64,000 nucleotides of DNA, taken from the NCBI RefSeq assembly GCF_030065545.1, contig NZ_JASJNC010000010.1, positions 1-64,000 on the forward strand, given 5' to 3'. Each line of letters opens with the position of its first letter. Within the stretch, counting starts at the first letter, position 1. This document shows, in pieces, positions 49,485 through 52,500 of this stretch. The translations under genes were made by a program, and so were the position numbers. The notes beneath the pieces are model-generated. The model ran no database searches. It had not been told where the DNA came from and worked only from the letters and a program-made list of their open reading frames with translations. This DNA is from Marinicella marina. GTDB taxonomy: Bacteria > Pseudomonadota > Gammaproteobacteria > Xanthomonadales > Marinicellaceae.

Positions 49485-50150
49485 TTAGCCAGTTGGTGTA
49501 ATAAAGCGGTCTGCAATGATTAAAACCACCCCAACCACCAGCAGAGCGATGCCTATTGACTGCATCACGAAGAACAGCGGTAAACCCAGCACCACCAGAC
49601 CCAAGCCTTTAGAAACAAAGTCCGAGGTGATTGGGTGCTTGGCATCACCACCCAAAAAGTGAGTCAGAACATGATCTAGAGAGAACTTACCGCCGCCTGA
49701 GAAAATCAGTGGTAATAACAAGATGGCAAATAACAGCGGTAACTTAAAGTTGCCCGCACCTTTGTTGGTAATGGCATAGCCTTCCCACAATTGGCCCAAT
49801 GATGAGTAGCTTTCAGGCCAGTGTACAGCGGCTGTTGCAACGGCCGTAATTACCAATAATGAAACAGCTGCAAACCGGGTGAACAAACCCAACAACAACA
49901 AAATGGCAAAGAGGTATTCTCCCCAGGCTGCCATGAACCATGACACATCAGCAGGAATGTGGTTGAATGGAAAAGGGAAGCTGTCTTGAATGCCAGCAAA
50001 CCAGTTTTCACCATTGATTTTTTGCGTGCCGGCTTCATAAAACTCCCAAAATAGGATCACCCGAATTAACAGTGGTGGTACCCATTGTCCTACTGAATTA
50101 AGTCTGCTGGTTAGCTGAACCCATAGGTTCTGCAATGAATTTAATGCCAT
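49485..50150 (-). CDS. DoxX family membrane protein (HvfD-like)
   Basis: The 221-residue DoxX protein has the family start PLLIRVILFWEFYEAGTQKI and the block WFMAAWGEYLFAILLLLGLF, then FAAVSLLVITAVATAAVHWP. About five membrane helices are visible, with an extra C-terminal pair of helices. It is the last gene of the MNIO/HvfA operon, 15 bases after the DUF2063 gene. DoxX members often accompany HvfABC-type operons (HvfD). The role is probably membrane-associated and linked to copper or redox homeostasis, but the biochemical activity is unknown. Confidence 0.88.
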   Translation of the reverse strand: MALNSLQNLWVQLTSRLNSVGQWVPPLLIRVILFWEFYEAGTQKINGENWFAGIQDSFPFPFNHIPADVSWFMAAWGEYLFAILLLLGLFTRFAAVSLLVITAVATAAVHWPESYSSLGQLWEGYAITNKGAGNFKLPLLFAILLLPLIFSGGGKFSLDHVLTHFLGGDAKHPITSDFVSKGLGLVVLGLPLFFVMQSIGIALLVVGVVLIIADRFITPTG

Positions 50151-50165: not shown

Positions 50166-50927
50166 TTATTTAATTGAAATGATGATGTCTTGCTGCAACC
50201 ATTGAGTGATTACTTGTTCACCAAAGTTGATAAATTGTTCGGGGTCAGGGTGTTGGTGTTGAATGGCCAGTTGTTGCAAAACCTGATGTCCGCTGTCGGA
50301 TTTATTATTCATTAATTTTTCAAGTAACAACGCTGAAAATGGCGTCATTTCTGAAAAATGGATTTGAAAGTTTTGGTCTCGCCATACAGTCAAATAAATA
50401 GGTGTTTCAGCAGCTTGTGTGGGTTGAAAAGATGCTTTGATTTTATGGACAGGAAAGGCATAACTGTTGAGTCTGGCCAAGGGCGAGATGACAGGGCTTT
50501 CATTCATCAGTTGATCTGCTGAAATCGGTTCTGCTGGTCTTTTCAATTCGATGCTGTGCTTTTCTAGATGCAGCTCAAGCCACTCGTAATGTGCCAATTC
50601 GTAAAGGAATGGTTTATTTGGGTCAGCTTCGGGGTTGGTCTGTAGAAATGTCACGAATTCACGCGGTATCTCAGGAAAATGTGGGGTTTTGTTGTGCTCT
50701 TTTTTAAAGTATTTTCTGACCAATAATTCCCAGCTGGCATCCGTATAAAGAGAACGGATAACAGGAAAAGAACCGGCCAATAAGCCACCGATGCTGCTGA
50801 TAAATAAATCACGATAGATTTTCATCCGCCGATCTTCTATGCTCGCAGGTTTTGGGTTGTTTTGCGGATCCCTGATGTGCGCCGCGAAATCAACTTGAGC
50901 TTGTTTAAATGATGGCTTGTTGCTCAT
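50166..50927 (-). CDS. DUF2063 (HvfC-like) partner protein of the MNIO enzyme
   Basis: The 253-residue protein has the N-terminal DUF2063 signature: FKQAQVDFAAHIRDP, RRMKIYRDLFISSIGGLLAG and SFPVIRSLYTDASWE, then FKKEHNKTPHFPEIPREFVT and ELAHYEWLELHLEK. The C-terminal half resembles the usual HvfC/BufC extension. In characterised systems this partner binds the precursor peptide and is needed by the DUF692 enzyme for modification. It overlaps the MNIO gene by 23 bases, so production is tightly coupled. Confidence 0.93.
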   Translation of the reverse strand: MSNKPSFKQAQVDFAAHIRDPQNNPKPASIEDRRMKIYRDLFISSIGGLLAGSFPVIRSLYTDASWELLVRKYFKKEHNKTPHFPEIPREFVTFLQTNPEADPNKPFLYELAHYEWLELHLEKHSIELKRPAEPISADQLMNESPVISPLARLNSYAFPVHKIKASFQPTQAAETPIYLTVWRDQNFQIHFSEMTPFSALLLEKLMNNKSDSGHQVLQQLAIQHQHPDPEQFINFGEQVITQWLQQDIIISIK

Positions 50928-51759
50928 TTTTTTGGCTGTAAGTTTGTTGTAACTGACTGATTCTCTCGACTTCAGCCAATAGTTCAGCTACTGGCGGGTA
51001 GTTGAAGTCACGCTCCAGTAGAGTCGGAAATACACCGTAGTTTTTGTAAGTGTATGCGAGGATTTGCCACACTTTTTCGATCACTGCTGCCCCATGCGTA
51101 TCAACAATTAAATCTTCTGCTTCATTGTAGTGACCCGCTACATGTATGTAGGCGATTCGATCTGTGGGTAGCTGATCCAGGAAATCAAATGGGTCGTAGC
51201 GATGATTGACACTGTTGACATGGATGTTGTTAACATCTAAGTGCAACAAACAGTCAGCTTTTTTAATGACATGATTGATAAATTCAATTTCAGTCATTTC
51301 TGGGTTTGGTTGGGTCAGGTAATAGGAAACGTTTTCTAATGCCATCCTTTCACCCAGAATATCTTGCACCCGTATCACACGTTCGGCCACATAGTTGGCA
51401 GCCTCTTCAGTAAATGGGATTGGCATTAAATCATAAAGTTGACCACCATCGGTACAGTATGAAAGGTGTTCAGAGTAAATTGGGGCTTTGATGGATTCTT
51501 TGAATTTTTTCAATGACTTAACAAAAGCCACATTCAATTCATCCGGGCCACCAATTGATAAGGATAAGCCGTGCAAAATCATGGGGTATTTTTCTGCAAA
51601 AGCGAGAAAGTCATACTTGGCTTTACCGCCAACGGTCATCCAGTTTTCTGGTGCCACCTCCATGAACTGAACTGGATTGAGGTCACCATAAGCTTGAAAC
51701 GGGGACACCAGTCCCCGTCTCAATCCGATACCGGCACCTGAAATTTCTAAATTTTTCAT
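50905..51759 (-). CDS. MNIO (DUF692) multinuclear iron oxidase, HvfB-like
   Basis: The 284-residue TIM-barrel enzyme has the DUF692 signatures. These are GAGIGLRRGLVSPFQ, MILHGLSLSIGGPDELN, PIYSEHLSYCTDGGQLYDL and MALENVSYYLTQP, then CLLHLDVNNIHVNSVNH, AYIHVAGHYN and TLLERDFNYPP. The His, Glu, Asp and Asn iron ligands expected for this family are present. MNIOs oxidise cysteines of RiPP precursors; HvfB-type enzymes modify EGKC(G) cysteines into copper-binding heterocycles. It lies 16 bases downstream of a precursor with 18 such motifs. The exact product here is inferred. Confidence 0.95.
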   Translation of the reverse strand: MKNLEISGAGIGLRRGLVSPFQAYGDLNPVQFMEVAPENWMTVGGKAKYDFLAFAEKYPMILHGLSLSIGGPDELNVAFVKSLKKFKESIKAPIYSEHLSYCTDGGQLYDLMPIPFTEEAANYVAERVIRVQDILGERMALENVSYYLTQPNPEMTEIEFINHVIKKADCLLHLDVNNIHVNSVNHRYDPFDFLDQLPTDRIAYIHVAGHYNEAEDLIVDTHGAAVIEKVWQILAYTYKNYGVFPTLLERDFNYPPVAELLAEVERISQLQQTYSQKNEQQAII

Positions 51760-51775
51760 TTCAGATTACCTGCTT

Positions 51776-52357
51776 TTAGCCGCCGCACTTACCTTCGCCG
51801 CATTTGCCTTCGGTTTTTTCAGCTTTCTCGCCGCCGCATTTGCCTTCACCGCACTTGCCTTCGGCTTTTTTCTCGCCGCCGCACTTGCCTTCACCGCATT
51901 TGCCTTCGGCTTTTTTCTCGCCGCCGCACTTGCCTTCACCGCACTTGCCTTCGGCTTTTTTCTCTCCGCCGCACTTGCCTTCACCGCATTTGCCTTCGGC
52001 TTTTTTCTCGCCACCGCATTTGCCTTCACCGCATTTGCCTTCGGCTTTTTTCTCGCCACCGCATTTGCCTTCACCGCATTTGCCTTCGGCTTTTTTCTCG
52101 CCACCGCATTTGCCTTCACCACATTTGCCTTCGGCTTTCTTGCCTTCGGCCTTATCGCCGCCGCATTTGCCTTCGCCACATTTGCCTTCTCCAGACCCAT
52201 CGGCTTTGGCAATACGACCATCGGCGTTTTGGTAACCATCGCTCAGGTCAGTTTGACCAAATGGGTTATCAGAACCACTCATTAAAGCGCCAGCTCCAAC
52301 TACAGTTACAGCGGCAGCAATGGCTGCATTAACAGGTTTTATTTTAAAGTTTTTCAT
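51776..52357 (-). CDS. HvfA/bufferin-type RiPP precursor with 18 EGKCG motifs
   Basis: This 193-residue protein has an N-terminal leader and signal-like helix (NAAIAAAVTVVGAGALMSGS), a short linker to residue 56, and then nothing but repeats. Nine units of EGKCGEGKCGG are joined mostly by EKKA; six are perfect 15-residue copies. All 18 cysteines are in EGKCG motifs, the target motif of HvfB-type MNIO enzymes, and it ends at EGKCGG. Known precursors of this family are short, secreted and bind copper after modification. This one appears much expanded. A strong SD (GGAGG) precedes the ATG. It is the first gene of the operon with MNIO, DUF2063 and DoxX genes. Confidence 0.93.
   Translation of the reverse strand: MKNFKIKPVNAAIAAAVTVVGAGALMSGSDNPFGQTDLSDGYQNADGRIAKADGSGEGKCGEGKCGGDKAEGKKAEGKCGEGKCGGEKKAEGKCGEGKCGGEKKAEGKCGEGKCGGEKKAEGKCGEGKCGGEKKAEGKCGEGKCGGEKKAEGKCGEGKCGGEKKAEGKCGEGKCGGEKAEKTEGKCGEGKCGG
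51779..52189. repeat. Tandem 45-bp coding repeats of the RiPP precursor
   Basis: Nine units encode the EGKCG double motif. Six consecutive copies are 45 bp each and differ at only a few third-codon positions (for example CTCGCCGCC versus CTCGCCACC). Because the period is a multiple of three, other frames are also open across the array. The near-identity of copies suggests recent expansion or frequent homogenisation. Confidence 0.95.
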
Positions 52358-52456: not shown

Positions 52457-52462
52457 ATTATA
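52457..52462 (-). promoter_or_regulatory. Possible -10 element of the RiPP operon
   Basis: On the minus strand the hexamer reads TATAAT, about 95-100 bases before the precursor start. The -35 region at normal spacing is poor, so an activator or an alternative start may be involved. This is a guess from one hexamer. Confidence 0.3.
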
Positions 52463-52500
52463 AGCACAGTAATATGACCATCGCCATTAAAAAATATTAC

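Follow-up and report, generated by a model that had tools for sequence, protein, structure and literature searches.

A long EGKCG repeat array in an oxazolin-type precursor of Marinicella marina and the variation of its length between species

The modification of cysteines in EGKCG motifs has been characterised in a small number of bacterial systems. Enzymes of the HvfBC type are reported to convert these cysteines into 5-thiooxazoles with the loss of 4 H, an assignment that has since replaced the oxazolone-thioamide structure (PMC13097082; PMC13419390), which the names of the NCBIfam models still retain. Haemophilus influenzae HvfA harbours three AEGKCGEGKCG motifs with six modified cysteines, and HvfBC prefers full-length HvfA, signal sequence included, as its substrate; in vitro, the six-site precursor receives five modifications on average, but less than one in the absence of the signal sequence (PMC13419390). 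Upon co-expression, every EGKCG motif of oxazolin is modified, and fontiphorin loses 4 H per repeat at seven sites and binds up to four copper ions, with copper inducing large particles and aggregation (PMC13097082). Equally, the bulbicupramide of Microbulbifer binds Cu(I), and the number of EGKCG cysteines varies from five to eight within this one genus; the same report describes the Microbulbifer proteins as undetected upon addition of copper and the protection of Escherichia coli as slight, which counts against a simple role in copper protection (PMC12538549). EGKCG/oxazolin precursors range in length from 31 to 506 residues and are made of a varying number of two-motif repeats, the longest of them containing 58 cysteines, and a beta-helix has been modelled with AlphaFold2 for a precursor of medium size (PMC12452194). 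The bufferins proper (Buf1 DUF2282, Buf2) have related MNIO maturases but belong to other precursor families.

The window, that is the whole stretch of 64,000 nucleotides of Marinicella marina DNA analysed here, contains an operon with a precursor gene of this kind, the features of which are as follows.

52457..52479, minus strand: promoter-like element GGTC-N7-TGTGCTTATAAT upstream of hvfA, conserved across upstream regions of the genus
51776..52357, minus strand: hvfA-type precursor, an open reading frame of 193 aa with an ATG start, scored with NCBIfam NF050137 and NF050188
52268..52357, minus strand: signal-like N-terminus, residues 1-30, recognised by eye, with a helix at 8-21 in a low-confidence model
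52232..52267, minus strand: conserved leader motif NPFGQTDLSDGY before the array, residues 31-42, from conservation in the genus and in named precursors
51779..52189, minus strand: array, residues 57-193, nine EGKCGEGKCGG units with a 45-bp period, from TRF and the sequence
50905..51759, minus strand: hvfB, MNIO (DUF692), 284 aa, PF05114 338.5 bits, NF003818 406.5 against a cut-off of 360
50166..50927, minus strand: hvfC, DUF2063/RRE partner, 253 aa, NF050145 280.9 bits against 142
49485..50150, minus strand: hvfX, DoxX family, 221 aa, NF050144 135.5 bits against 80, and PF07681

The precursor gene heads an hvfABCX operon, in which the genes for HvfB, HvfC and HvfX, all scoring above their NCBIfam cut-offs, lie adjacent on the same strand and the start of hvfC overlaps the end of hvfB. 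The four-gene set and the AEGKCGEGKCG pairs are shared with the H. influenzae oxazolin system (HvfABC, HvfX), which possesses three pairs with six cysteines compared to nine pairs with 18 cysteines in the window (PMC13419390). The precursor is matched in 8 stretches by the model KCGExKCG_twice (NF050137; 150.1 bits, cut-off 19.5), but falls narrowly below the cut-off of the HvfA equivalog model NF050188 (91.2 against 95) so that we refrain from calling it an HvfA equivalog in the strict sense. As HvfB exceeds the cut-off of the HvfB model and does not reach that of the BufB maturase model NF050167 (262.3 against 310 bits), the precursor is set with the EGKCG/oxazolin branch and not with the bufferins proper. 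The initial annotation, which had proposed an HvfA or bufferin precursor modified by an HvfB-type MNIO, is thus supported by the NCBIfam matches with this narrower placement. Relatives in the PDB are 3bww for HvfB (E 1.2e-78) and 3dee for HvfC (E 6.2e-07). HvfB carries Arg14-Arg15 and Asp251-Phe252 in the motifs LRR and LLERDF, which were matched by motif, and not by alignment, with Arg15-Arg16 and Asp249-Phe250 of the FonB active site; judged from these residues, the enzyme appears to possess the active site by which MNIOs of the Lys-Cys type captophorins are recognised. Gene identity, operon structure and these motif-matched residues come directly from the present analysis. HvfB is the sole match of a PF05114 search of the genome, which found no second MNIO, and its nearest named relatives reside on four Marinicella contigs (82-89% identity). 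The locus is a genuine oxazolin/captophorin operon whose array is long, and represents one more member of a known family. Publications on the Marinicella array were not found in a search of titles, abstract starts and term counts, a coverage outside which most subscription journals lie.

HvfB relatives also occur on plasmids, where 352 records all show less than 60% identity and the precursor-like open reading frames in three inspected records have no EGKCG. The conjugative plasmid pEA15_1 of Escherichia albertii (L162, 1242-4654) encodes DUF692, DUF2063 and DoxX proteins together with a short precursor-like open reading frame that lacks EGKCG; these lie between genes for an MBL-fold hydrolase and a cytochrome bd subunit. 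Plasmid pAURM-2 of Acinetobacter ursingii (L163, 2070-4910) carries a precursor-like open reading frame with AKCG repeats and genes for an MNIO and a DUF2063 protein. The genes after these, with the annotations sigma factor and zf-HC2 protein, may form a sigma/anti-sigma pair.

The protein, with a computed average mass of 18,878 Da at full length, begins with the signal-like N-terminus, which a linker separates from the array. Residues 57-193 contain nine EGKCGEGKCGG units with 18 EGKCG motifs and 18 cysteines, every cysteine residing inside a motif, and the 15-mer EGKCGEGKCGGEKKA is present six times unchanged, so that the architecture initially described (193 residues, a leader, nine units, 18 EGKCG cysteines and six perfect 15-residue copies) is confirmed on the sequence. 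TRF finds a period of 45 bp with 7.9 copies and 93% matches. A degenerate codon pattern for EGKCG has 18 matches in the 3.46-Mb genome, 18 of 18 of them in the hvfA-type gene, and 0 with the reversed-pattern control, which excludes the array as a chance product. Other long open reading frames over the array (51766-52239, minus strand; 51804-52235, plus strand) were dismissed as by-products of the stop-free repeat. In the leader, N31, P32, F33, Q35, D37, L38, G41 and Y42 are invariant among 12 genus sequences; the form NPFxxx[DE]LxxGY stands directly before the array in 39 of 62 named precursors in its strict form, and a relaxed pattern, PF..L/M..GY, was found in 54 of 58. This motif is perhaps the part read by HvfC. 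A conserved leader and a number of EGKCG cysteines that varies within a genus are shared with the bulbicupramide precursors, which have five to eight cysteines compared to 8-18 EGKCG in the genus of the window (PMC12538549). Equally, the fontiphorin/captophorin class shares EGKCG repeats and an MNIO with a DUF2063 partner, with seven sites in FonA compared to 18 in the window (PMC13097082). The long Buf_EGKCG/oxazolin precursors, with their variable two-EGKCG repeats, have a length range that includes that of the window precursor, but are built of 17-residue and not 15-residue repeats (PMC12452194). Another repeat in the window, at positions 1-2363, consists of tandem 258-bp units (9.1 copies, 73% matches by TRF), extends past the window start and looks like a large repeat protein.

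The longest exact self-repeat in the hvfA-type gene is 101 bp at an offset of 45, and a short-read assembly could thus have dropped or added a unit. An assembly error in the number of units, with a real array of fewer or more than nine, would fit this exact repeat and the contig breaks at other arrays of the genus, as in four of the 17 motif-bearing genomes (G003, G006, G008, G014) the array is broken between two contig ends and in G015 the single piece found lies at a contig start. On the other hand, units of the window differ by synonymous substitutions, only two adjacent full units being identical in DNA, and the contig continues through the array on both sides, which makes a wrong count distinctly improbable.

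Array length was compared at the level of genus, family, class and named relatives. The motif occurs in 17 of 18 genus genomes and the domain in 27 of 33 family genomes. The 12 complete genus arrays contain 8, 8, 9, 10, 11, 12, 12, 14, 16, 16, 17 and 18 EGKCG, the window array being the longest and five of the 12 having 14 or more; five more genus genomes have incomplete arrays, among them G003, where two pieces at contig ends carry 10 and 8 motifs. Of 369 genomes sampled from the class, including that of the window, 80 have the paired motif, and two class genomes exceed the nine pairs of the window genome, one with 10 in two places and one with 11 over two contigs. Of the loci around the 80 nearest HvfB relatives with names, 62 gave complete precursors, counting L056 with a remnant of only 19 residues; a contig end truncates the precursor in 6, and in 12 the filter used revealed none. 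Six of the 62 (L031, L033, L034, L035, L039, L048), with identical HvfB, are also genomes of the genus set. The median EGKCG number of the 62 precursors is 7 and five of them have at least 15 KCG, and a Pseudoteredinibacter locus (L101) encodes 18 EGKCG in 193 residues just as the window does. Eighteen motifs is thus in the upper tail generally and not unusual in this genus; an unprecedented number is ruled out by the 58 cysteines in print (PMC12452194), by the five genus arrays with at least 14 and by L101. The term hyper-expanded and the accompanying statement that described relatives carry only a few motifs, both from the initial annotation, do not survive this motif-count survey of related precursors, and the claim to rarity falls by the criterion that the annotation itself had set. 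A different elaboration is found in an EGKCG precursor at L189 (minus strand, G076), in which EF-hand-like DTDGDGSVSKDEF and DKNGDGIISAEE are located between two EGKCG groups; in the published EF-hand type the domains are placed after the EGKCG part (PMC12452194).

Changes in copy number, which had been proposed from the near-identical DNA copies, are borne out between species. The loci L087, L101 and L104, with HvfB 98.9-99.3% identical and an almost identical leader, possess 16, 18 and 15 motifs, and the window has 18 motifs compared to 10 in its nearest relative G009 (L031), the HvfB of which is 90.9% identical in a comparison of 70 entries, six genus-set genomes being counted twice there, and 89% identical in the search for named relatives. 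The linkers read EKKA in the window, DKKA in G009, DDKKA in G002 and G012 and mostly DDKDA in G008. Furthermore, synonymous codon likeness between the window units is 0.827, compared to 0.792 in the best of 500 within-gene shuffles and 0.673 between species; this test is restricted to units with an Ala in front (7 of 9 in the window) and omits G001, G009, G015 and G017, each of which has three or fewer of these. Across the 13 arrays, the observed value was reached by no shuffle in four, by one shuffle in four and by 15-335 of 500 in five, the codon-homogeneity signal being strong in the window but not in all species. Linkers and codons together point to lineage-specific amplification and homogenisation. 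Homogenisation and the variation in array length are observed here directly, and we infer unequal recombination or slippage as the molecular route of unit turnover.

Upstream regions were aligned for 11 of the 17 genus genomes that carry the motif (all but G001, G004, G005, G007, G015 and G017), and TGTGCTTATAAT is kept in 9 of 11 between variable flanks; in the window, the element continues as the partly palindromic CTGTGCTTATAATAAACACAG, and together they are possibly an operator over the -10. A search of the genome for GGTC-N7-TGTGCTTATAAT gave one exact match, one with two mismatches and 28 with three, but as these 30 matches in all compare with 18 for a reversed-pattern control, no regulon is claimed. 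The upstream neighbour, which from its translation alone we take to encode the E2 component of a 2-oxoacid dehydrogenase complex, precedes hvfA with its 3' end in all 11 aligned regions, which fits vertical inheritance.

An EGKCG/oxazolin-type (captophorin) RiPP operon with cysteine conversion, Cu(I) binding and unit turnover probably provides the explanation that joins these observations, whereby cysteine modification, export and copper binding are predicted for the window HvfA from its characterised relatives. HvfA would be synthesised with its signal-like leader and recognised by HvfC together with HvfB, HvfB would oxidise each EGKCG cysteine to a 5-thiooxazole with the loss of 4 H over 18 sites, and the exported chain would bind Cu(I) so that copper is sequestered or buffered, with HvfX/DoxX as a presumed accessory. 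Whole units would be gained and lost by recombination or replication slippage, the array being re-homogenised in each lineage, and copper capacity would thus differ from species to species.

That all 18 cysteines are converted, giving a polymer with many copper ions, is plausible by analogy with the relatives. Partial modification, with the remaining array as free thiols engaged in metallothionein-like metal binding or disulfides, seems rather unlikely. In its favour, HvfBC achieves about five of six modifications in vitro on full-length HvfA with an effect of the leader (PMC13419390), and the genome encodes one MNIO when very long precursors may, according to the authors of PMC12452194, need more than one enzyme; however, six- and seven-site EGKCG precursors are fully modified on co-expression (PMC13097082; PMC12538549), and the retention of EGKCGEGKCGG in 9 of 9 units fits a constraint by the enzyme, although recent duplication explains it equally. 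Proteolysis at the Lys-rich linkers could turn a multi-copy precursor into small two-site peptides in place of a polymer, as Lys-containing linkers recur regularly between the pairs and PMC13097082 leaves cleavage of EGKCG products undecided; but the operon contains no protease gene, as is likewise described for the bulbicupramide operon (PMC12538549), and the linkers differ from species to species, so that such processing is considered unlikely.

AlphaFold2 on the 12-sequence alignment gave a mean pLDDT of 38.8 with helices at 8-21 and 37-43 and neither strands nor structure in the array. The beta-helix modelled for the mid-size Buf_EGKCG/oxazolin precursor (PMC12452194) thus has no counterpart with a confident fold in the window, but with so few aligned sequences and an unmodified chain as input, the model decides nothing on the beta-helix. 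A tentative and somewhat doubtful proposal is that the array acts as an intrinsically disordered, multivalent copper polymer, its length set by fast unit turnover and copper-driven networks of chains being its working state. If so, copper capacity would evolve as entire units are added or removed, with leader and enzymes nearly fixed, and aggregation of the fontiphorin type would be function and not artefact.

The locus adds a case of array-length turnover to a copper-binding RiPP family, the long members of which raise the questions whether all sites are reached by one enzyme and whether maturation yields a single long chain or fragments. With 15, 16 and 18 motifs next to near-identical HvfB, L104, L087 and L101 constitute a natural series in which the number of sites can be related to copper capacity.
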